A program made the translations under genes and the position numbers. Positions 6,198-45,540 of a DNA stretch of 45,540 nt are shown piece by piece. This DNA comes from PVC group bacterium (GTDB lineage Bacteria; Verrucomicrobiota; Kiritimatiellia; SLAD01): positions 1 through 45,540 of the forward strand of contig PWVE01000165.1 of assembly GCA_003562335.1 (NCBI GenBank), read 5' to 3'. The notes beneath the pieces were generated by a model. The model searched no databases. It was not told where the DNA came from and saw only the letters and a program-made list of their open reading frames with translations. Numbering within the stretch: the first letter of the stretch is position 1; each line of letters opens with the position of its first letter.

Positions 6198-6677
6198 ATG
6201 GACGAACTACTTAAAATATTAAAGGGCAATGCGCTGGAAAGCGCGGAGAATATCGGCAAGATGCTGGGGCTTTCCACCGACGAAGTGCGCACCCGTATAG
6301 CCGAATACGAAAAGAACGGCGTCATCCGGGGCTACCAGGCCATCGTGAACGAAGATGTCCTGAAAATGGACCGGGTGACGGCCGTGATTGAGGTCCGGGT
6401 CAGCCCCGAACGCGAAGGCGGCTTTAACCGGATTGCGGACCGGATCAGCAAGTTTGACGAAGTCCAATCGGTTTACTTGATGTCGGGCGATTTTGACCTG
6501 TTGCTGTTTGTGGTGGGCCGCGACCTGAAAGAGGTGGCGTTTTTTGTCAGCGAGAAACTGGCCACGATCGAGGGCGTGCACGGCACCGCCACCCATTTCA
6601 TGTTAAAGACCTATAAACATCACGGCGTATTCATGGAAACACCCGATGCATATGAACGACTCAAAGTTACGCCCTAA
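6198..6677 (+). CDS. Lrp/AsnC-family transcriptional regulator
   Basis: About 159 residues. The N-terminal ~55 residues hold the winged helix-turn-helix (SAENIGKMLGLSTDEVRTRIAEYEKNGVIRGYQA), the remainder is the RAM/ligand-binding domain (AVIEVRVSP..., QSVYLMSGDFDLLLFVVG). Members form dimers to octamers and respond to amino acids. ATG 6198 has GGAGGA eight bases upstream. The stop lies inside the following aminotransferase gene (32-base overlap), so the two are co-translated. The pairing suggests the regulator senses an amino acid handled by that enzyme; this is inferred from context. Confidence 0.93.
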   Translation: MDELLKILKGNALESAENIGKMLGLSTDEVRTRIAEYEKNGVIRGYQAIVNEDVLKMDRVTAVIEVRVSPEREGGFNRIADRISKFDEVQSVYLMSGDFDLLLFVVGRDLKEVAFFVSEKLATIEGVHGTATHFMLKTYKHHGVFMETPDAYERLKVTP

Positions 6678-7824
6678 TTTACTAGCCCAGCAACTGCAGG
6701 CGGTCCCCCGTTCCGGTATCCGCGATTTTTTTGAAATCGTGAGCACGATGCAGGACGTGATCAGTCTGGGCATTGGCGAACCCGATTTTGATGCGCCCTG
6801 GCATATCCGGGAAGCCTCGGTATTCGCCTTGGAACGCGGGGCCACGAGCTACACGTCCAACCTGGGCCTGCTTTCGTTGCGTCAGGATATTGCACGTTAT
6901 TTGCAGGACACCATGGGGCTGTCGTATGCGCCGGATACGGAAATCCTGATTTCCGTCGGCGTCAGCGAGGCCTTGGACCTGGCCATACGCGCCATTTGCA
7001 ATCCGGGCGATGAGATCATGTACCACGAGCCATGCTACGTGTCCTACGGTCCCCTGATTCAGTTCGCCCATGGCGTGCCGGTGCCGGTACCCACTTCCAT
7101 GGAAAACGAGTTCCGGCTGACGCGCGAGGCGTTGGAGGCCCGGGTAACCCCGCGCACCAAGGCCTTGCTACTGAATTACCCCAACAACCCCACCGGCGCG
7201 GCGCTCGGCCCTGAAGAGGCCAAAGACCTGGCGGACTTTGTGCTGGCGCACGACCTGATCCTGATAACCGACGAGATTTATGCCGAGCTCACCTACGACC
7301 AATCGCACGTCAGTGTGGCGGCGTTTCCGGGGATGCATGAACGCACCATTTTTCTCCACGGATTTTCCAAGGCGTGGGCCATGACCGGATTCCGGCTCGG
7401 CTACGCGTGTGCCCCCCCGGAACTAACAGATGCGATGATGAAGATTCATCAATACACCATGCTCTGCGCCCCGATCCTGAGCCAGGAAGCGGCGCGCGAA
7501 GCGCTCCGGCGCGTGGATGAGGATGTGGAAGTCATGAAGTCGGAATACCGTAAACGACGCAATTTCCTGCTGAATTCCTTTGCGGAAATCGGTCTGCCCT
7601 GCTTTATGCCGCGCGGGGCTTTCTACGCGTTTCCCTGCATTGAGAAGACCGGCCTGACCGCCAAGGAATTTGCGTTCGGGCTGCTCGAACAGGAAAAAGT
7701 CGCCTGCGTGCCCGGCACCGCCTTTGGCCCTTCCGGCGAAGGGTTCGTGCGCTGCGCGTATGCCACCTCACTGGACGCCATCAAAGAAGCCATCCAGCGC
7801 ATGGCCCGCTTCATTGGAGGCTGA
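6646..7824 (+). CDS. PLP-dependent aminotransferase, class I/II
   Basis: 392 residues, fold type I. Seen in order: IGEPDFDAP, the Y69-T70-S71-N72 substrate loop, NYPNNPTGA (N at ~178-181, cofactor binding), ITDEIYAELTY (D209 pairs with the pyridine nitrogen, Y212), and GFSKAWAMTGFRLGY with the Schiff-base lysine K242. This is the AspC-gamma/PatA-like subgroup that uses aspartate, aromatic or branched amino acids with 2-oxoglutarate. The substrate cannot be told from sequence. It overlaps the Lrp gene and precedes murA by nine bases, so a role in supplying an amino acid for envelope synthesis is possible but unproven. Start at 6646 is favoured by GGAA six bases upstream; ATG 6652 is an alternative. 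Confidence 0.93.
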   Translation: MHMNDSKLRPNLLAQQLQAVPRSGIRDFFEIVSTMQDVISLGIGEPDFDAPWHIREASVFALERGATSYTSNLGLLSLRQDIARYLQDTMGLSYAPDTEILISVGVSEALDLAIRAICNPGDEIMYHEPCYVSYGPLIQFAHGVPVPVPTSMENEFRLTREALEARVTPRTKALLLNYPNNPTGAALGPEEAKDLADFVLAHDLILITDEIYAELTYDQSHVSVAAFPGMHERTIFLHGFSKAWAMTGFRLGYACAPPELTDAMMKIHQYTMLCAPILSQEAAREALRRVDEDVEVMKSEYRKRRNFLLNSFAEIGLPCFMPRGAFYAFPCIEKTGLTAKEFAFGLLEQEKVACVPGTAFGPSGEGFVRCAYATSLDAIKEAIQRMARFIGG

Positions 7825-7833
7825 CCCACGGCC

Positions 7834-9126
7834 ATGGCACGCTTCATCATCAACGGACAACAGCCCCTGCGGGGCACCTTCACGCCGTTAGGCAACAAGA
7901 ACGCCGCGCTCCCGATGCTGGCCGCTACCCTGCTCACCGATGAGCCGGTGGTGCTGCGTAATCTGCCGCCCATCGAGGACGTCCACGTCATGTGCGAACT
8001 GCTCACGGCGCTGGGCGTGGACATTACGCTGCGCGGGCAAACCGCCACGCTCTGTGCGGCGGGCCTGCGCCATACCCGGCTCCACCCGGAACATTGTCGC
8101 CGTGTGCGGGGATCGATTCTGCTGGCCGGCCCGTTGGTGGCCCGCCACGGACAAGCGGTGCTGGCCCCGCCGGGAGGCGATGTGATTGGGCGGCGTCGCC
8201 TGGACACGCATTTTGCCGGCTTGAGCGAGTTGGGTATACGTATCCAGACCGGCACCCGCGATTTCCGGCTGCGTCGCGACGCGTTACACGGAGCACGCAT
8301 TGTCCTGGATGAAGCCAGTGTCACCGCCACAGAGAACATCATGATGGCGGCCGTGCTGGCGTCGGGCGTCACGACCATTTACAACGCCGCGTGCGAACCG
8401 CATGTGCAGGATCTCGGACGCCTACTCATCAAGATGGGGGCGCGCATCGACGGTTTGGGCACCAACCGACTGCGGATCCGCGGCGTCAAGCGCCTGCACG
8501 GGGCCACGCACCGTATTCAACCGGACCACATCGAATGCGGCAGTTTCGCAGCCGCCGCGTGGGTTACCGGGGGCGATGTCACACTGCGTGTCAACGGCAT
8601 GGACGCGGACACCTTACACGTTTGCGGCCGCGCTTTTGCCCGGCTGGGGGCGGCCTGGAATCCGCAGCGCGGCCGGTTACACGTGGCTCCCACCGCGCTC
8701 AAGATTCAACCTGACCTTGGCGACGCCATCCCGAAGATCGAGGATGGTCCCTGGCCGGCCTTTCCATCGGATCTCATGAGCGTGGCTATCGTCATGGCCA
8801 CCCAGGCCACAGGCACCTGCCTGTTCTTCGAAAAGATGTTCGAAAGCCGCATGTTCTTTGTCGACGCCCTCATCTCGATGGGAGCGCGCATTGTGCAGTG
8901 CGACCCGCACCGTATCGTGGTTTCCGGTGCCACAGGCTTGCGCGGGGCCCACATGGCCACACCTGATATCCGCGCCGGCATGGCCTTGCTGGTAGCCGCG
9001 CTCGGCGCGCGCGGGCAAAGCGTGATTGAGAATGCCGGCATCATTGACCGGGGATACGCGCAAATCGAAACGCGCCTGCAACAGCTAGGCGCGGATATCG
9101 AGCGGGCAGAAAGCAGTGGGCAGTAA
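7834..9126 (+). CDS. murA: UDP-N-acetylglucosamine 1-carboxyvinyltransferase, Asp-type active site
   Basis: A 430-residue EPSP-synthase-fold enzyme that transfers enolpyruvate from PEP to UDP-GlcNAc, the first committed step of peptidoglycan synthesis, in the cytoplasm. Visible are the PEP-binding GNKNAALPM near the N-terminus, GSILLAGPLVARHGQ, AFPSDLMSVAIVMATQ with the catalytic Asp, and DIRAGMALLVAAL with the PEP-binding Arg. In the mobile loop the residue equal to E. coli Cys115 is D116 (PPGGDVIGRR). Asp at this site occurs naturally in Mycobacterium and Chlamydia enzymes, keeps activity and prevents alkylation by fosfomycin. The gene starts nine bases after the aminotransferase. The last residues (ERAESSGQ) run into a repetitive intergenic sequence, so the stop may have shifted recently. 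Confidence 0.97.
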   Translation: MARFIINGQQPLRGTFTPLGNKNAALPMLAATLLTDEPVVLRNLPPIEDVHVMCELLTALGVDITLRGQTATLCAAGLRHTRLHPEHCRRVRGSILLAGPLVARHGQAVLAPPGGDVIGRRRLDTHFAGLSELGIRIQTGTRDFRLRRDALHGARIVLDEASVTATENIMMAAVLASGVTTIYNAACEPHVQDLGRLLIKMGARIDGLGTNRLRIRGVKRLHGATHRIQPDHIECGSFAAAAWVTGGDVTLRVNGMDADTLHVCGRAFARLGAAWNPQRGRLHVAPTALKIQPDLGDAIPKIEDGPWPAFPSDLMSVAIVMATQATGTCLFFEKMFESRMFFVDALISMGARIVQCDPHRIVVSGATGLRGAHMATPDIRAGMALLVAALGARGQSVIENAGIIDRGYAQIETRLQQLGADIERAESSGQ

Positions 9127-9877: not shown

Positions 9878-9904
9878 AGCGGATTTGGTCCGCTTTATGG
9901 AGGT
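9878..9904 (+). promoter_or_regulatory. Hairpin next to the ribosome binding site of the receiver gene
   Basis: AGCGGA (9878-9883) and TCCGCT (9889-9894) form a six-base stem with the loop TTTGG. GGAGGT, the ribosome binding site of the ATG at 9914, begins five bases after the stem. The hairpin may affect ribosome access or mRNA stability. It lacks a true T-run, so it is not a good terminator. Confidence 0.4.
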
Positions 9905-9913
9905 CTAAATAAA

Positions 9914-10294
9914 ATGGCAAAGATATTGGTTATCGATGACGAAGAGGGCGTACGGCACTATTTTAACAGCCTGCTATCACGTATGGGCTATGAAGTGGAG
10001 ACGGCAGAGGATGGCGAACGCGGATTTGAACTGGCTAGCCAGCCGGGTATCGATCTGATTATAGCGGACTATCAGCTACCTGGCCCCCTGCAACGGGCGG
10101 CCCTGATCAAAGCGCTGCGCGAACAGAGTCCGGACACCCCCGTGGTGGTCATCTCCGGCCACGCGGATGCCCAAACCGTAAGCGAGTGCGAGGAAATGGG
10201 CGTGCAGGACGTGCTCACCAAGCCTTTTGAAATTCCATTTGTTTCGTCGATCGTCAAAAAACTCATTGGGGAGCCGGGCGGAGCCGATCAGTGA
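9914..10294 (+). CDS. Stand-alone response-regulator receiver protein
   Basis: 126 residues, all receiver domain with no output domain. The acidic pair D9-D10 (VIDDEEG), the phosphoacceptor D53 (LIIADYQLPG), the Ser (VVISGHAD) and the conserved Lys in LTKPFEIP are all present. Unlike most receivers, the loop after D53 is altered to QLPGPLQRAAL. The stop overlaps the GTG start of the KaiC-like ATPase (GTGA), so both proteins are made together, and the receiver probably controls or is controlled by that ATPase. No histidine kinase is adjacent; the hybrid kinase at 43.9-45.5 kb is far away. Confidence 0.93.
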   Translation: MAKILVIDDEEGVRHYFNSLLSRMGYEVETAEDGERGFELASQPGIDLIIADYQLPGPLQRAALIKALREQSPDTPVVVISGHADAQTVSECEEMGVQDVLTKPFEIPFVSSIVKKLIGEPGGADQ

Positions 10295-11208
10295 TTGTCA
10301 AGACGCTCAGTGGATTGACCCTTCTTGACGAACCTCACGGAGGAGTGTTTGCCGGGCGCAATTTCTTGATTTGTGGTCGTAGCGGCACCGGTAAAACGGC
10401 TGCCGGCATGCATTTTATCCGGCAAGGCCTGCAACAGGAAGAGCGCTGTCTCTTGCTGTCGACGATGCAGGCGTCGGATATCGCCATATTGGCGGAGTCC
10501 TACGGCTTTTCGTTTGCGGCTGACATTGAACAGGGCAATCTGATCCTGCTGGAATACGAATTCTTTGCGCCGGGGCGGCAAACCTTTCGCGACGCGTTAC
10601 CGGCTGAAGGGTTTGGTCAACTACAGGAACTGATCCAAGCCAACTCCATTACGCGCGTCGTCCTGGACACGGTCCTGCCTTGGGTTTCAGTACCGTCTAC
10701 TGAAAAATTGTCGGAACACATCTTTTCTTTCGTGCGGTCATTCGATCGCATGAACGTAACCACCTTGATGACGCTACCCAAACCGGTCTCGCCGATGGCC
10801 TTTCGCCTAAAAAAGACAATTGAGGAAGTGACCCCCATTTCCGTTTTATTAAGCACCACCGAGGATCAGCAAGCCTTGCGCTGGCAAACCGTGAAGTATT
10901 TGGGCGTTAAACAGACCCCGGGCCCCGTCCTGTACCAACTATCGCCGACCACCGGGATTACCCCTGTTGAGGAGATGGAAGATGAACCGGTGGCTGCTCC
11001 CGAAGCCGTCTCCGCGCGACCGGAACCGGAGTCCGTTCAACCGGCCGCGTTACAAAAAGTGCGTTTCGCGAATAAAATCCAAGCAGCTCCCACGCGGTCG
11101 TCGTCCGTGGCGTCGCACCCGACCGGCCATCAGCCCCCCGTCCCCAAAGGGCCCGCCCGGCTTTCGTCTGTTTGGAAACCGACCCTGACCTCGTCGCCCC
11201 CACGCTGA
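10291..11208 (+). CDS. KaiC/RAD55-like RecA-superfamily ATPase
   Basis: 305 residues starting at GTG 10291, which overlaps the receiver stop. One RecA-like ATPase domain fills residues ~1-225: Walker A GRSGTGKT (29-36), a core strand CLLLSTMQASDIAILAESYGF, and Walker B-like ITRVVLDTVLPWV. This is the KaiC-like/GvpD/RAD55 group, used in signalling and clock-type switches as well as recombination. Only one domain is present, so it is not a full KaiC. Residues ~226-305 form a Pro/Ala/Arg-rich tail without predicted fold, possibly a protein- or DNA-contact region. It ends 97 bases before topoisomerase VI subunit B on the same strand, which suggests but does not prove a link. Confidence 0.85.
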   Translation: MIVKTLSGLTLLDEPHGGVFAGRNFLICGRSGTGKTAAGMHFIRQGLQQEERCLLLSTMQASDIAILAESYGFSFAADIEQGNLILLEYEFFAPGRQTFRDALPAEGFGQLQELIQANSITRVVLDTVLPWVSVPSTEKLSEHIFSFVRSFDRMNVTTLMTLPKPVSPMAFRLKKTIEEVTPISVLLSTTEDQQALRWQTVKYLGVKQTPGPVLYQLSPTTGITPVEEMEDEPVAAPEAVSARPEPESVQPAALQKVRFANKIQAAPTRSSSVASHPTGHQPPVPKGPARLSSVWKPTLTSSPPR

Positions 11209-11305: not shown

Positions 11306-12994
11306 ATGGCAAAAAAGAAACCCGTTCGCAAAGAAACAGCGGAAAGCATGGGCGCACGCCAGCGCGAGATTTCCGTCTCCGAATTTTTCCTGAAAAACCG
11401 GCACCTGCTTGGCTTTGACAGCCCGCGCAAGGCGCTATTGACCACCGTTAAAGAGGCTGTCGACAACGCCCTGGACGCGTGTGAGGAAGCCGGCATTCTC
11501 CCCTCCATCAGCGTGGAACTGCGCCAATTGGCGGAAAACCGGTTTGTGGTGCATGTGACCGATAATGGCCCCGGCGTAGTCCGCAAGCAGATCCCCAAGA
11601 TTTTTGCCAAGTTGCTGTACGGCTCCAAATTTCATCGCCTGCGGATGTCACGTGGCCAACAAGGAATCGGTATCAGCGCTGCCGGGATGTATGGCCAATT
11701 GACCACTGGCCGAGCCACCCGTATCTGGTCTAAGACCCAACGTCAAGCATGCGCCCACCGGATCGCGGTCCAGATTGACACCAAAACCAATAAACCGGTC
11801 ATCCTGGAAGACGAAGAAGTTGAATGGGCCCCTGCCTTTCATGCCGAGGACCCGCACGCCGAGCCGGTCACCGCCCACCACGGCACCTGCGTATCGATCG
11901 AAATGGAGGCGGCCTATATCCGGGGCCGTCTATCGGTGGACGAGTTCCTCAAGCAGTGTGCGATCGTAAATCCGCACCTGCAATTACACTACCGGGTGGT
12001 GTTGCTATCCAAGAAAGACCCCAAAGCCGACGCGGCCCAGTCCGATTTCATCGGTCAGGAACCGCCATGGACCGTCTTTGCCCGCGGGGTCGACTCTTTG
12101 CCTCCGCCCAGCGGCGAGATTAAGCCCCACCCGCACGGCGTGGAGCTGGGCGTGTTGATTCAAATGCTCAAGGATTCCAGTGCGCGCACGCTGAAAGTCG
12201 CACTGACGCAGGATTTTTCGCGGGTTAGCGACAAGGCGGCCCACTTCATCTGTGACACGGCTGGCTTAAGTCCCAAAGCCCATCCGCGCCGCATCGCCCA
12301 TCAGGAGAGTGAGGCGCTCTACAAAGCCATTAACGAAGTGAAATTGATGCGCCCTCCCACCGATTGCCTGTCCCCAATCGGCGAGGAACAGATACTGGCC
12401 GGTCTGCAGAAAGAGATCAAAGCCGACTTCTATACGGCCGTGACCCGCAACCCCACCGTGTATCGCGGTAACCCGTTTCAGGTCGAGGTCGGGTTGGCCT
12501 ATGCCCGGCCCGGCGAGAATGCGGATTTGGGCGGGGACGATCCGGTCCGGGTGCTGCGCTTTGCCAACCGCGTGCCCTTACTGTACATGGGTGGCGGTTG
12601 CGCGATTACCAAGTCCGTGAACAGTGTGAACTGGAAATCCTACGGTTTGGCTCAACCCAAGGGCTCGCCCCCGCTGGGTCCCATGGTCATCATGGCCCAC
12701 ATGGCCAGCGTCTGGGTCCCCTTCACCAGCGAATCGAAAGAGGCCGTTGCGCACTATGCTGAAATCATCCGCGAATTGACCTTTGCCTTGCAGGAATGCG
12801 GCCGTCGCCTGTCGGTTTACCTCAACAAGCGTAAACGCGCCGCCGAGGCCGAACGCAAACGGGGCTACATCGAAAAGTATATCCCGCACCTGGCCTTGGG
12901 TCTGCACGATATTCTAAAATTCAGCGACCAAGAGCAAACCAAGGTCGAAGCAGCCCTCAAGGAAATGCTCGAACGCACGCACCTACAAGTCTAA
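11306..12994 (+). CDS. top6B: DNA topoisomerase VI subunit B
   Basis: 562 residues, near the usual 530-ish length of archaeal Top6B. It is the ATPase subunit of the type IIB topoisomerase and closes around the second DNA duplex. The GHKL motifs are complete: KEAVDNALDACEEAG (N box, Mg-ATP), VTDNGPGV (G1), and the LLYGSKFHRLRMSRGQQGIGISAAG segment (lid, G2). The transducer domain carries VLRFANRVPLLYMGGGCAITKSV, with the switch Lys near the NR..L segment. The gene starts with ATG at 11306 with no clear Shine-Dalgarno and is followed 24 bases later by subunit A. Bacterial copies are scattered and usually attributed to transfer from archaea; base composition here looks like its neighbours, so any transfer is old. 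Confidence 0.96.
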   Translation: MAKKKPVRKETAESMGARQREISVSEFFLKNRHLLGFDSPRKALLTTVKEAVDNALDACEEAGILPSISVELRQLAENRFVVHVTDNGPGVVRKQIPKIFAKLLYGSKFHRLRMSRGQQGIGISAAGMYGQLTTGRATRIWSKTQRQACAHRIAVQIDTKTNKPVILEDEEVEWAPAFHAEDPHAEPVTAHHGTCVSIEMEAAYIRGRLSVDEFLKQCAIVNPHLQLHYRVVLLSKKDPKADAAQSDFIGQEPPWTVFARGVDSLPPPSGEIKPHPHGVELGVLIQMLKDSSARTLKVALTQDFSRVSDKAAHFICDTAGLSPKAHPRRIAHQESEALYKAINEVKLMRPPTDCLSPIGEEQILAGLQKEIKADFYTAVTRNPTVYRGNPFQVEVGLAYARPGENADLGGDDPVRVLRFANRVPLLYMGGGCAITKSVNSVNWKSYGLAQPKGSPPLGPMVIMAHMASVWVPFTSESKEAVAHYAEIIRELTFALQECGRRLSVYLNKRKRAAEAERKRGYIEKYIPHLALGLHDILKFSDQEQTKVEAALKEMLERTHLQV

Positions 12995-13018
12995 CCCCAC
13001 TCGCACCAAGGAATCACC

Positions 13019-14152
13019 ATGCCACGCACCACACGCCCCAAAGGACCGCAAGTTGTTACCCGCCAGGAAGCCGCCCATAAGATCGAGGCGGTAGCCGAGC
13101 GGGTACACACCGATATCACGCAGCGCCGCAAAAAACCGGAAATGCGATTTCCAATTCGCTCGCTGGCCAACGTCAAATACGACCCCAAACGCGGTCATTT
13201 TGAAATTCTCGGTAAAGAATCCACCCGGACCCTCTCCTACAATACCGTTAAGGCTTTTGCTCAATCGATGCGATTACTGGCCACCACCAAAAATGATTTA
13301 CTGGACCGGGACGACATTGCCGGCAAACGCGAGGTGTACTACAACAGCAAAAGTTGGGGCGAATGCCGCTTTGATGCCCAGCCGGAAAGCGACAGCTTGC
13401 TGGACGATATTGAGGCGATGCTGGCCATCAACCGCGAACAACTGGGCTACATCCCGGAAGAACGCGGCGGCGAGGTCTGTGGCCCCATAGTCGTCATCGA
13501 CCGCGACCCGTCAACCGGCGAAGATATTCGTATCGACTGCACGAAACTCGGCACCGGTGCCTGGAGCGTCCCCTCGCGGGTGGAACACTTGCGGTTTCAG
13601 TCGAAGGCGAAATTCTTGCTGGCGGTGGAGACTTCTTCACTCTTTCAACGACTGGTTCATCATCGCTATTTTGAAAAGGCCAATTGCATTCTGGTTTCCA
13701 TGAGCGGGGTCCCTACCCGCGCCTGCCGCCGCTTTATCCGGCGCGTGGCGGACGACCTGAAAATGCCGGTGCTCGCCTTTACCGACGGTGACCCGTACGG
13801 CTACTGCAATATCTACCGCACCTTGAAAGCTGGTTCTGGACAGGCCGCTCACATTAACCGCTATTTTTGCGTGCCGTCGGTGCAGTACCTCGGTGTCACC
13901 CCGCAGGACATCATCGACTATAAGCTGGAAGACACCACCCATCCGCTGGAAGAGGTGGACATCAAGCGCGCCAAGGACGCGCTCAAAAACGACCCGTTCA
14001 TCCGGCATCATAAGGAATGGCAACAGGCCCTCAACCAAATGCTGAAAATGGGCGTGCGCATCGAACAGCAGGCCTTCGCCAAATACGGCTTAAACTTTGT
14101 ACTCGACACCTACCTGCCGGAAAAACTGCGCAAGAAAAACTTTCTGCCTTAA
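13019..14152 (+). CDS. top6A: DNA topoisomerase VI subunit A, Spo11-like
   Basis: 377 residues, the typical size. It is the DNA-cleaving subunit. The winged-helix CAP domain has the catalytic tyrosine in KREVYYNSKSWG; by alignment with Spo11 it should be Y108, the second of the pair. The Toprim domain follows with the metal-binding Glu in LLAVETSSLF and LAFTDGDPYGYCNIYRTLKAGS, the hallmark DGD motif. Both active sites are intact, so the enzyme should be functional. AAGGA before ATG 13019 serves as ribosome binding site. The gene stops three bases before the inverted-repeat element at 14156, which probably acts as or near its 3-prime end. Confidence 0.96.
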   Translation: MPRTTRPKGPQVVTRQEAAHKIEAVAERVHTDITQRRKKPEMRFPIRSLANVKYDPKRGHFEILGKESTRTLSYNTVKAFAQSMRLLATTKNDLLDRDDIAGKREVYYNSKSWGECRFDAQPESDSLLDDIEAMLAINREQLGYIPEERGGEVCGPIVVIDRDPSTGEDIRIDCTKLGTGAWSVPSRVEHLRFQSKAKFLLAVETSSLFQRLVHHRYFEKANCILVSMSGVPTRACRRFIRRVADDLKMPVLAFTDGDPYGYCNIYRTLKAGSGQAAHINRYFCVPSVQYLGVTPQDIIDYKLEDTTHPLEEVDIKRAKDALKNDPFIRHHKEWQQALNQMLKMGVRIEQQAFAKYGLNFVLDTYLPEKLRKKNFLP

Positions 14153-29055: not shown

Positions 29056-29545
29056 TTCAAAAAACATATTAGTGGTCTGTACCGGCAACATTTGCCGCAG
29101 CCCAATGGCGGAATACCTGTTACGGGCGCGCTTGCCGGCCACGGGCCAGTGGCAGGTCGCTTCCGTCGGCTTGGCGGCCGCCGACGGGCAGCCCGCCAGT
29201 GCGCCAGCACTTGAGGTCTTGGCGGAACAGGGTATTGACGCCACGGCCCATCGCAGTAGGATGGTGCGCCGCGAGTGGCTGGAGCAAGCCGCCTACGTGT
29301 TGGTTATGACGCGTGGTCACTCGGCCGCTATTCTGGCACAGTGGCCGGAATTTGCGGATAAGGTTTATTTAATTGCGGGCTTCGGCCCGGAAGGCGAGGT
29401 CCCCGACATTGCGGACCCAATCGGACAATCGACGGCCGTTTACCGACAGGTTGCGGACCAACTGAAGGACGCGATCGACGATTTTATTTTATATTTGGCG
29501 GATAGAGGGGAAATTGATTCACGCCAACAGAGGGAGCGAACATGA
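29048..29545 (+). CDS. Low-molecular-weight protein-tyrosine phosphatase
   Basis: 165 residues. The active site C-x5-R is VCTGNICRS (C11, R17), and [11 protein letters not shown] carries the general acid Asp near residue 125. This is the YwlE/LMW-PTP family. In B. subtilis YwlE the residue four after Cys is Thr, which selects for phosphoarginine; here it is Ile15, the residue of classical tyrosine phosphatases, so phosphotyrosine is the better guess. ATGA joins it to the rpiB-glyA fusion. In Bacillus ywlE, ywlF (rpiB) and glyA are clustered in the same order. Confidence 0.92.
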
Positions 29546-31221
29546 AGATAGCAGTGGGTGCCGATCACGGCGGTTATGAGATTAAAGAGGCCATCAAGGC
29601 CCATTTACTGGACGAGGGCATCGTCGTTGAAGACGTGGGCACCGACAGCACAGAGTCGGTTGATTATCCCGATTATGCGGGAAAAGTAGCCCGGCTGGTC
29701 TCCGAAGGCGATGTGGACCGTGGCGTCATTGTTTGCACCTCCGGTATCGGCGTATCCATCATGGCCAACCGGTTTCCCCGGGTGCGGGCCGGCGTGTGTC
29801 TCACGGTAGGGATGGCCAAGATGGGCCGTACCCACAATAATATCAATGTCCTGACGATGGGCGGAGCGCTGGTCGACGCAGCACAGGCCACGGCCATTAC
29901 CGATGCATGGCTAAAAACCGAGTATGAAGGCGGACGGCATGAGCGGCGCCTCGGCAAGATTCAGGCATATTCGGCCATGATTGATGACCCGGTGGTATTG
30001 CACGACACCGATCCCGAACTCTATGCCGCCTTGCGCTCGGAAGCGCGGCGCTTACGTGAAAACATTGAGCTGATTGCCTCGGAAAACTATACCAGCCGTG
30101 CGGTGCGTGAAGTACAGGGCTCGGTCATGACCAACAAGTATGCCGAGGGCTATCCCGGCAAGCGTTGGTACCATGGCTGCGAATTCGTGGACGAAGCGGA
30201 ACGTCTGGCCATTGACCGCGCCAAACAATTGTTCGGCGCGGAGCATGCCAACGTGCAACCGCACAGCGGTAGTGGCGCTAATATGGCGGTCTATTTCTCG
30301 GTGCTTGAGCCCGGTGACACGATACTCGCCATGAGCCTGGCCCATGGCGGACATCTGACGCACGGCCATAAGGTCAACTTCTCCGGCCGCTTTTTCAACG
30401 TGGTCCAGTACGGCGTCGACCGTGAAACCGAGTTGATCGATTATGATGAAATCGAGCGCTTGGCCGATGAACACAAACCGAAGCTCATTTGCTGCGGGGC
30501 CAGCGCGTATTCGCGGATCATCGACTTTAAGCGCTTACGCAAGATTGCCGATGGCGTGGGGGCCTACCTGATGGCCGACATGGCCCACATTGCAGGGCTG
30601 GTCGCCGGCGGCTGCCATCCCAACCCCGTGCCCTACTGTGAATTTGTCACGACCACCACGCACAAGACACTCCGCGGCCCGCGTGGAGGGTTGATACTCT
30701 CGCAGGAACGGTTTGCGGCCGATATTGATCGCCAAGTCTTTCCCGGCATCCAAGGCGGCCCGCTGATGCACGTCATTGCCGCGAAAGCGGTCTGTTTTCA
30801 TGAAGCGTTGCAACCGGCCTTCAAGACCTACGCGCAACAAGTGGTACGCAACGCGCAAGCGCTGGCGACCCAACTCGAAAAACACGGCGTGCGCATTGTA
30901 TCCGGTGGTACCGATAACCACGTGATGCTGGTGGATTTAACCTCACTCGACGTGTCCGGGAAGGACGCTGCGGCGGCGCTGGATCTGGCCCGGATCACCG
31001 TTAATAAGAACGCGATTCCGTTTGATACCAAAAGTCCGTTCGTTACCTCCGGTATCCGGCTGGGCACACCGGCCGTTACTACCCGTGGCATGGAAGAAGC
31101 GGACATGAAAAACATCGCCGCTTTCATCCATACCGTACTGGAAAAACCGGACGACAAGAAGGTCATCCAGCGCGTACGCGACGATGTAGTGGCCTTTACG
31201 GCACCGTTCCCTGTACCCTAA
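29542..31221 (+). CDS. rpiB-glyA: Fusion of ribose-5-phosphate isomerase B and serine hydroxymethyltransferase
   Basis: 559 residues in one uninterrupted frame. Residues 1-~143 are Rpi[20 protein letters not shown]65 in [15 protein letters not shown], the RTHNNINVL His, and EGGRHERR. Residues ~150-559 are a full SHMT (GlyA): [56 protein letters not shown] and [14 protein letters not shown] with PLP-binding K375. Both sets of active-site residues are intact. One half interconverts ribose and ribulose 5-phosphate, the other makes glycine and methylene-tetrahydrofolate from serine. No stop, frameshift or internal start with Shine-Dalgarno is seen at the join. Confidence 0.95.
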
Positions 31222-43864: not shown

Positions 43865-45540
43865 TCAGGGGGATGAAAGCGCGTCCTGAATGGCAACGGA
43901 CATGGCCTCGGCCGTAAAGGGTTTCTGCAGGAAGTTCATGTGCTCAGGTACAATCCCGTTGCGGGCGATGACTTCTTCCGAATAACCCGACATAAACAAG
44001 CATTTTATGGAGGGACACTTCTGTACCACTTGATCGGCCAGCTCTTTGCCATTCATTTCAGGCATGATGACATCAGTCAGCAATAAGTGGATTTCATCTT
44101 TATGTTGGTCCACCAACTGCAGCGCTTCCTTTGGTGAAGCAGTGCTCCAAACGGTAAATCCGGCTCGCTGTAAGGTCCGCTCAGTCAGATTCAGGATACT
44201 GGCTTCGTCCTCCACAATCAAAATCCCCGTACCCTGCTGATCGGTTACAACCGCAGACGCGCCTTCCAGCACTTCCACCCCGGGATCATCGCATACCGGG
44301 AAATACAATCGAAATGCGGTGCCTTGCCCAGCGGTGCTGTCCACTTCAACGTACCCGCCGTTTTGCCGAACGATCCCATACACGGTGGAGAGGCCAAGCC
44401 CGACACCTTGCCCTTTGGCTTTGGTGGTGAAGAAGGGCTCAAACACCTGCCGAGTCAGTTCTTCGTCCATCCCGCAACCGTTATCGGTGACCGATAAAAC
44501 CACATATTCCCCCTTGACCGGATATTCTCCCAAAAACAATTCACGTCCGGATAGGTACACGCGGTCAGCACCAATTTGAATATTTCCACGTTCCGTAATC
44601 GCATCACGCGCGTTCACGCACAAATTGACCAGTATCTGATCCAGTTGGGATGGATCAATCTTGATTTGCGCCTGGCCCTCACCGGGCACCCAATCCAATT
44701 TTATCGACGCATCCATCAACCGCCGAAGCATTCCCAGTAAGTCTGGAACGACCGCCTTCAAGTCCACGACCTGCGGCTTCACGGATTGTCGACTGGCAAA
44801 GGCCAGTAGCTGGCGCGTCAGCTCCACGGAACGTTTGGCCGCGTTCTTCACCTGCTCTAGATCTTGCTTCAACCAGCCATTGTCCCCGGCACCTTCCATG
44901 GCCAACTCTGTATTGCCCAGGATGACCTGCAACATGTTGTTAAAATCATGGGCAATACCGCCTGCCAAGCGCCCGATTGAATTCATTTTCTGCGCCTGCT
45001 GGTACATGCGCTCCCGCTCCAGTTCATCGGTAATATCCCGCTTAATGGCTACAAAGTGGGTCACCTCGCCGTTTTCATTGCGCACCGGCGAAATGGTGGC
45101 TTCTTCAGTGAACAGGTGGCCGTCTTTTGCCCGGTTGACCACCTTCCCACTCCAAACCTGTCCCTGGGCGATGGTATGCCACATCTCCGTGTAAAAGGCA
45201 TCCTCCTGTTCACCACTTTTTAAAATGCGCGGGTTCTGGCCGATTGCCTCGTCTGCCGTATAACCGGTGACCCGCTCAAAAGCGGGATTGACGTACTGAA
45301 TGGTGCCGCTGACATCGGTGATCACAACGGTGTCCGGCGATTGCTCAATGGCGGTTGCTAACCGGGCGCGCTCGCTTTCGGTCTGTTGCTGATCTTCGAT
45401 TACCTTGAGCAGCATGCGGCGCGACTCCTCGGCCTCCGCCAATAACCGGTCCTTTTCCTGCTCGGCACATTTACGGGTATGAATATCGCGGTCCCATCCC
45501 ACGAATCCAACCAACCGTCCCGCCGCATCATGCTTGGGCA
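43865..45540 (-). CDS. Hybrid sensor histidine kinase, N-terminus outside the window
   Basis: At least 558 residues; the frame stays open to the window edge, so the true start is to the right. The visible part starts in the end of a PAS/PAC domain (GFVGWDRDIHTRK), then a coiled coil, a second PAS domain (SPDTVVITDVSGTIQYVNPAFERVTGYTADEAIGQNPRIL), HisKA with the phospho-His in GGIAHDFNNMLQVILGN, HATPase_c (LCVNARDAI, VTDNGCGMD, GVGLGLSTVYGIV) and a C-terminal receiver (ILIVEDEASILN, LLTDVIMPEMNG with the Asp, and the Lys in LQKPFTAE). It has no helix-turn-helix. Signals through internal phosphotransfer to the receiver. No receiver-only partner is adjacent. Confidence 0.93.
   Translation of the reverse strand, partial: PKHDAAGRLVGFVGWDRDIHTRKCAEQEKDRLLAEAEESRRMLLKVIEDQQQTESERARLATAIEQSPDTVVITDVSGTIQYVNPAFERVTGYTADEAIGQNPRILKSGEQEDAFYTEMWHTIAQGQVWSGKVVNRAKDGHLFTEEATISPVRNENGEVTHFVAIKRDITDELERERMYQQAQKMNSIGRLAGGIAHDFNNMLQVILGNTELAMEGAGDNGWLKQDLEQVKNAAKRSVELTRQLLAFASRQSVKPQVVDLKAVVPDLLGMLRRLMDASIKLDWVPGEGQAQIKIDPSQLDQILVNLCVNARDAITERGNIQIGADRVYLSGRELFLGEYPVKGEYVVLSVTDNGCGMDEELTRQVFEPFFTTKAKGQGVGLGLSTVYGIVRQNGGYVEVDSTAGQGTAFRLYFPVCDDPGVEVLEGASAVVTDQQGTGILIVEDEASILNLTERTLQRAGFTVWSTASPKEALQLVDQHKDEIHLLLTDVIMPEMNGKELADQVVQKCPSIKCLFMSGYSEEVIARNGIVPEHMNFLQKPFTAEAMSVAIQDALSSP

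Follow-up and report, generated by a model that had tools for sequence, protein, structure and literature searches.

The window, the whole 45,540-nucleotide stretch of DNA that was analyzed, encodes a receiver (REC) gene that overlaps a KaiC-like gene, followed by the two subunits of DNA topoisomerase VI. The features of this locus are as follows:

9878 to 9894, + strand: 7-bp hairpin in the receiver leader (RNA fold)
9899 to 9904, + strand: ribosome binding site of the receiver gene, GGAGGT (GGAGGTC is kept in congener L034)
9914 to 10294, + strand: stand-alone receiver, 126 aa (PF00072, E 1.2e-23, 83.8 bits)
10067 to 10069, + strand: codon of the receiver phospho-acceptor D52 (alignment of 38 receivers)
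10291 to 10294, + strand: stop/start overlap GTGA
10291 to 11208, + strand: one-domain KaiC-like protein, 305 aa (PF06745, E 1e-18)
10375 to 10398, + strand: Walker A, GRSGTGKT, residues 29-36 (canonical GxxxxGK[ST] in 45 of 49 family members)
10465 to 10470, + strand: residues 59-60 (M, Q), at the KaiC catalytic-glutamate columns (alignment to KaiC)
10666 to 10668, + strand: Walker B aspartate D126 (D in 46 of 49), followed by an LPW motif (P130, W131; W131 in 48 of 49)
10957 to 11205, + strand: proline-rich C-terminal tail, residues 223-305, with VRFA at 11059-11070 and ARLSSVWKP at 11155-11181
11306 to 12994, + strand: DNA topoisomerase VI subunit B, the next gene (NF003218, E 9.7e-189)
13019 to 14152, + strand: DNA topoisomerase VI subunit A (PF21180, E 3.4e-57)

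An aminotransferase gene, murA, and a small lipoprotein-looking ORF lie upstream of the pair, and the genes for topoisomerase VI B and then A lie downstream. Topoisomerase VI is mainly an archaeal enzyme, and both of its subunits (11306-14152) are encoded here in a bacterial genome. Elsewhere in the window, one ORF (29542-31218) fuses an RpiB/LacAB-type isomerase (residues 3-140) to a serine hydroxymethyltransferase (residues 153-529).

An earlier note on this DNA had described a stand-alone receiver coupled to a one-domain KaiC-like gene, and both the Pfam matches and the GTGA overlap bear this out. The overlap may also lead to production of the two proteins in fixed proportion, as had been proposed. 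The receiver contains PF00072 alone, with the acidic pair, phospho-acceptor aspartate, and conserved lysine expected of a stand-alone receiver; D9, D52, and K103 are invariant in an alignment of all 38 family receivers. The phospho-acceptor is thus D52 rather than D53, the residue previously named, which was off by one. A domain scan detected no DNA-binding output domain in either protein of the pair. As the earlier note had stated, no kinase gene was identified beside the pair in the window (Pfam scan of ten plus seven window ORFs, a subset of the total); its companion statement, that no output gene is adjacent, does not carry over to relatives, which do carry neighboring output genes. The only hybrid kinase seen in the window (PAS plus receiver, 43868-45514) is approximately 33 kb from the pair and is a candidate phosphate donor.

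The hairpin reported to precede the receiver ribosome binding site is present, and its stem is retained in congener L034 with altered base pairs (two sequences compared). Its stability, on the other hand, does not exceed that of dinucleotide shuffles (z of -1.07 and -1.00, with 29 and 38 of 200 shuffles equally good), and a terminator scan detected nothing at this position. The hairpin was therefore rejected as a regulatory element.

The KaiC-like protein scores 68.0 bits against PF06745 (curated cut-off of 26.6), and the family profile matches KaiC chains with a best E of 2.1e-37. Its ATP site was evaluated in an alignment of 49 family members that includes the window protein and omits a fragment (L076). 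The Walker A motif begins with alanine (ARHGGGKT) in one homolog, L033, and likewise in its congener L059. At the K-x-R finger, lysine is present in 45 of 49 members, while the arginine is replaced, by leucine in 39, and is kept in only one. The catalytic glutamates of KaiC are E77 and E78, and the E77Q/E78Q variant retains 22% of wild-type ATPase activity (PMC5007536). None of the 49 family members has an acidic residue at either of the corresponding columns (59 and 60), which makes the label "ATPase" used in the earlier note doubtful. Since Walker A is kept and both catalytic glutamates are absent, the KaiC-like protein more probably acts as an ATP-binding switch than as an ATPase with turnover, and it is likely to bind ATP with little turnover, as in ArlH. 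The proposed phosphorylation-controlled RecA-fold switch fits the invariant D9, D52, and K103 and the recurrence of the pair (see below).

The C-terminal tail had been described as a basic and proline-rich extension of about 80 residues. It comprises 83 residues, 15 of which are proline, in agreement with the length and proline richness; however, with four lysines, five arginines, one aspartate, and seven glutamates it is nearly neutral and thus not basic. The window tail carries VRFA at residues 257-260 and ARLSSVWKP at residues 289-297. An RFS/RFA-type motif is present in 26 of 49 tails compared to a mean of 3.0 in shuffled tails, for a pattern that was picked post hoc, and a (K/R)L(S/A)S(V/I)W motif is common, by eye, to the window tail and most tails of family f18. 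An AlphaFold2 model of the window protein, built on an alignment with one relative, was discarded (mean pLDDT of 31.5, pTM of 0.20).

The earlier note had made its proposal depend on the gene pair recurring in relatives, and the pair recurs across the class. Screening of 146 genomes of the class Kiritimatiellae (E <= 1e-15) identified the KaiC-like protein in 45, and a set of 50 loci, including the window, was compiled for analysis of gene neighborhoods. In 38 of the 50 loci, a receiver gene in the same orientation immediately precedes the KaiC-like gene, and 20 of these 38 junctions have the 4-base overlap as called. Three loci (L050, L060, and L063) start at or near a contig end, where an upstream receiver cannot be judged, and seven have upstream DNA with no separate receiver (L033, L059, L068, L069, L074, L081, and the fusion-like L077). 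The N-terminal part of the L077 protein (6634-7992, - strand) scores 11.5 bits against the family receiver model, where the best of 2000 shuffles scores 9.6, and a Pfam scan of this part detected no receiver; this is suggestive only of a natural receiver-KaiC fusion with a degenerate receiver-like N-terminus. In L079 (6637-7844, - strand), the position ahead of the KaiC-like gene that a receiver usually fills is taken by a receiver-PAS protein and an Hpt protein, an arrangement that points to a phosphorelay. Hybrid kinases adjoin the KaiC-like locus in three relatives (L041, L047, and L080), and that in L080 is upstream of the KaiC-like gene. A single locus recovered by a contig scan, from a Kiritimatiellae metagenome, is apparently contig C90 of congener genome G087, which it matches gene for gene. 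In a sample of 387 genomes from the phylum, 36 matched the family profile (E <= 1e-25), 35 of them within the same class. The sole genome outside the class (G148) encodes an AAA gene and a TPR gene beside its KaiC-like gene.

A third gene commonly accompanies the pair in relatives. In 38 of 50 loci, clustering of neighbors identified a co-oriented gene immediately downstream that encodes an AAA protein of approximately 285 residues (one of the 38 is a fragment), and a profile search added an AAA gene beside the KaiC-like gene in four more (L040, L048, L063, and L080). The AAA protein is a member of PF13401 with intact Walker A (GPYGVGKS) and Walker B (DEAQ) motifs. Its nearest NCBIfam model is TIGR03015, the XrtA/PEP-CTERM-associated ATPase, a relative that is likewise found in a polysaccharide locus; module AAA proteins score 110.0, 121.7, and 124.3 bits against this model and are far below its cut-off of 324.5. 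At C240:3601-4368 (L086), separate from the module AAA genes, this genome encodes a protein that is nearer to the XrtA/PEP-CTERM-associated ATPase (257.5 bits).

Polysaccharide genes are the other recurrent neighbors, with a glycosyltransferase cluster in 21 and a TPR/deacetylase cluster in 31 of the 50 neighborhoods. The glycosyltransferase is a family 2 synthase that closely resembles PgaC and NodC. Its DDR and QQxRW segments are invariant, and its gene is divergent from the pair in many relatives. In alignment, the synthases (e.g., L033:8025-9545) also have, at the N-terminus, a segment with four cysteines that resembles a zinc ribbon and, at the C-terminus, an invariant WGTR. A PgaB model matches the TPR/deacetylase copy on contig C191 of this genome (E 1.2e-30). 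Genes for GHL10 proteins are neighbors as well, and a subset of loci also encodes MBOAT and SGNH/DUF459 proteins. In 20 of the 50 neighborhoods, a motif search further picked out a small putative anchor. This protein has a single hydrophobic helix at its N-terminus (judged by eye), a segment rich in proline, and a YVWE-type C-terminus. Collectively, these neighborhoods suggest that the full module in relatives comprises the receiver, the KaiC-like protein, and the AAA ATPase, frequently together with a small membrane anchor, and that it commonly lies beside polysaccharide genes.

The distribution of these genes over the 146 class genomes was compared at thresholds of E <= 1e-200 for the synthase and E <= 1e-90 for the AAA protein. 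The KaiC-like protein (45 genomes) and a strong synthase match (38 genomes) occur together in 36 genomes and singly in 9 and 2, with neither in 99 (Fisher p of 2.7e-23, a value that, like all of these p-values, takes no account of ancestry). Stated differently, a synthase is present in 36 of 45 KaiC-like genomes and in 2 of 101 others. Comparison of the KaiC-like protein to strong AAA matches yielded the same four numbers (36, 9, 2, and 99), and comparison of synthase to AAA yielded 35 genomes with both, 3 and 3 with one, and 105 with neither. These counts leave out eight genomes whose synthase matches are all weaker (1e-128 to 1e-145) and nine whose AAA matches are all weaker; when the latter are included, the KaiC-like versus AAA counts become 40, 5, 7, and 94. 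Of the nine KaiC-like genomes that have no strong synthase match, G077 carries part of a synthase gene at the end of a contig; nine KaiC-like genomes likewise have no strong AAA match. Co-occurrence extends to genes that are not adjacent, as in G022, where the synthase and KaiC-like genes are approximately 217 kb apart on one contig.

Gene copy number follows the same pattern. Five genomes encode two KaiC-like genes (G000, G087, G020, G054, and G063), and all five also encode two AAA genes and two synthases, with some of these genes cut by contig ends (e.g., the second AAA gene of G087 is a contig-end fragment). Among the 40 genomes with one KaiC-like gene, a second synthase is present in 2 and a second AAA gene in 2. 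Because the five two-copy genomes represent three genera, these observations correspond to at most three events.

The genome from which the window derives has two AAA genes of the module family (C142:5936-6799 and C185:9117-9986) and two synthases of the family, on contigs C142 and C191. The AAA gene on C142 adjoins a second KaiC-like gene, the product of which is 44% identical to that in the window, and no KaiC-like gene is beside the AAA gene on C185. The C142 locus (L033), denoted here as set A, comprises KaiC-like, AAA, deacetylase, and SGNH genes and a synthase of its own. It has no receiver, so the KaiC-like protein can persist without one. Phylogenetic reconstruction placed the window KaiC-like protein with family f18 (support of 99/92) and the C191 synthase inside the f18 group (100/99), each of these groups including the same single f2 row, and it placed the C185 AAA protein as sister to f18 (97/91). 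For set A, the KaiC-like and AAA proteins from C142 group instead with G077 (92/97 and 98/93). The receiver tree disagrees with the other three, as the window receiver does not group with f18 and joins an f20 row at 91/82. In another locus (L040, genome G094, family f2), the KaiC-like protein and synthase group with f18, as does the receiver with weak support, as if the set moved between families as a unit.

The C191 locus is ordered as anchor (YVWE), GHL10, TPR, synthase, and deacetylase, followed by DeoR, E2, Lpd, and E1 (DeoR, E2, and Lpd were named by eye and E1 by Pfam). In the congener G087, a DeoR-E2-Lpd-E1 block is directly before REC-KaiC-top6B, and its genes are 77, 74, 82, and 88% identical to those on C191. 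In these two congeneric species, the same block of four genes thus borders the pair in one and the C191 locus in the other, and we infer that one contiguous set, denoted as set B, was broken up. Set B is likely scattered in this genome, with REC and the KaiC-like gene in the window, the AAA gene on C185, and the synthase, PgaB-like deacetylase, and anchor on C191. The KaiC-like, AAA, and synthase trees and the block in the congener favor this assignment, whereas the receiver tree speaks against it. The window therefore likely displays an incomplete set, of which the usual third gene and the probable output locus are on other contigs.

Several characterized systems resemble this module in part. 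In the E. coli cellulose secretion system, BcsE is a single NTPase*-REC*-GGDEF* protein that has a phosphorylation-incompetent receiver and senses c-di-GMP (PMC7439463, PMC11470070). BcsE/BcsF/BcsRQ and the present module have in common a P-loop/RecA-like module that is non-catalytic (probably so in the present case), a receiver, a partner ATPase, and a small membrane protein made up of one helix and a cytosolic tail. In E. coli bcs the regulators are also divergent from the processive synthase, with K-12 bcsE-bcsF-bcsG opposite bcsA-bcsB. Unlike in BcsE, the receiver here is separate and appears phosphorylatable and Walker A is intact, and the partner ATPase is of the AAA rather than the SIMIBI type. 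A comparison by hhalign of the family profile to K-12 BcsE and to its first 217 residues (one BcsE sequence) gave probabilities of <1% each, so that a remote relation is still conceivable, and Pfam scans detected neither PF10995 (BcsE) in the window proteins nor a GGDEF-type domain in either protein of the pair. Because no sequence relation was found, we propose at most that the module works like the BcsE system and claim no membership in it.

ArlH (FlaH) binds ATP without hydrolysis and acts on a partner ATPase, ArlI (PMC8978795). The protein described here likewise has a single KaiC-like domain, a sequence that is compatible with ATP binding without turnover, and a candidate partner ATPase; ArlH differs in belonging to an archaeal motor, in the kind of its partner ATPase, and in receiving chemotaxis input via CheF and ArlCDE (PMC8978795). 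In Myxococcus xanthus, EpsW-EpsZ likewise involves a stand-alone receiver that controls exopolysaccharide synthesis post-translationally; that receiver differs in acting on the phosphoglycosyl transferase of a Wzx/Wzy pathway, and the abstract names no KaiC-like protein (PMC12802240). Full-text searches, with most subscription papers and bioRxiv preprints outside their scope, returned no paper on a KaiC/exopolysaccharide module of this kind.

We consider it reasonably probable that the pair forms the signaling half of a module controlling a synthase-dependent exopolysaccharide system with a PgaC/NodC-like synthase, a PgaB-like deacetylase, and TPR proteins. Its likely job would be to switch polymer production on and off, since it looks like a displaced piece of a module that is beside polymer genes in relatives. 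Weighing against this reading are the discordant receiver tree, the KaiC-like genomes that have no strong synthase or AAA match, the seven loci with no separate receiver (set A among them), the topoisomerase VI genes downstream in the window, and the recovery of the anchor in only 20 of 50 loci. In the predicted sequence of events, a histidine kinase or phosphorelay would phosphorylate D52, for which the required residues are present and the donor is presumed. The phosphorylated receiver would then bind the KaiC-like protein, as their gene coupling suggests, and the KaiC-like protein would bind ATP and oligomerize with little or no turnover, in keeping with the absence of the glutamates. It may in turn recruit and gate the AAA ATPase through its motif-bearing tail and the membrane anchor, and the resulting complex may switch polymer synthesis or export post-translationally. 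Binding, ring formation, docking, and control of the AAA protein and synthase are predicted here from gene coupling and by analogy to BcsE/BcsF/BcsQ. A more specific and more tentative version, which we regard as possible, is a four-part controller particular to the Kiritimatiellae in which a phosphorylatable receiver gates an ATP-locked, non-hydrolyzing KaiC-like ring that is docked by a peptide motif and an anchor onto the AAA protein. Such a controller would be a phosphorylation-run counterpart of the c-di-GMP-run BcsE/BcsF/BcsQ, either separately evolved or an unfused form.

Other roles for the pair were weighed against control of an exopolysaccharide secretion system. Transcriptional or RNA-level control of the polysaccharide genes, in place of assembly on the secretion machine, would be consistent with the divergent orientation of the synthase genes in many relatives and with the functional analog BcsE, which also binds antitermination components (PMC7439463). 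Nevertheless, we regard this as unlikely given that neither protein has a DNA-binding output domain in the domain scan, that the partner gene encodes an AAA ATPase related to the XrtA-associated type, and that the extra gene looks like one for a membrane protein. The adjacent topoisomerase genes raise another alternative, namely that in this genus the pair was recruited to topoisomerase VI. It would then share a transcript with top6B-top6A and adjust DNA topology when a signal is received. The REC-KaiC-top6B order and a spacing of approximately 90-97 bases between KaiC and top6B are kept in the window and in the congener (G087/L034). However, the intergenic stretch itself is poorly conserved, topoisomerase VI genes adjoin the pair in only 2 of 50 loci, both from this genus (the window and L034/G087), and the KaiC-like gene co-varies class-wide with the polysaccharide synthase and AAA genes, which together make such recruitment rather improbable.

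The dispersal of the likely partners on other contigs and the fast divergence of the tail (49% identity between congeners) could alternatively mark the pair as a functionless, decaying remnant of an operon that was scattered. Against this, the genes have no stops, the receiver residues and Walker A are intact, and this genome has genes for the AAA protein, the synthase, the deacetylase, and the anchor. Moreover, dN between congeners is 0.145 for REC and 0.159 for the KaiC domain while dS is saturated for both genes (NG86), which indicates purifying selection on the receiver and the KaiC domain; we consider loss of function highly improbable. Lastly, clear homology to KaiC, the cyanobacterial clock protein of the same domain family, might suggest a KaiC-type timer or clock. 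That reading was rejected, and we give it almost no credence, as the window protein has one KaiC domain rather than two and lacks the catalytic glutamates, and KaiB was detected in none of nine genomes searched, with Synechococcus elongatus positive as the control.

The pair is thus real and conserved, and its genomic association with AAA and polysaccharide genes is strong; the exopolysaccharide control mechanism is a prediction. It predicts that the KaiC-like protein binds ATP without turnover, that binding between the two proteins depends on D52, and that docking occurs by the tail motif. If true, two-component phosphorylation would be linked to polymer secretion through a KaiC-fold protein, and a bacterial KaiC-like family would have a clock-free role with a named output. 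The Kiritimatiellae module would then present a BcsE-type layout, with an inert P-loop module, a receiver, a membrane peptide, and a partner ATPase, that takes phosphorylation rather than c-di-GMP as its input.
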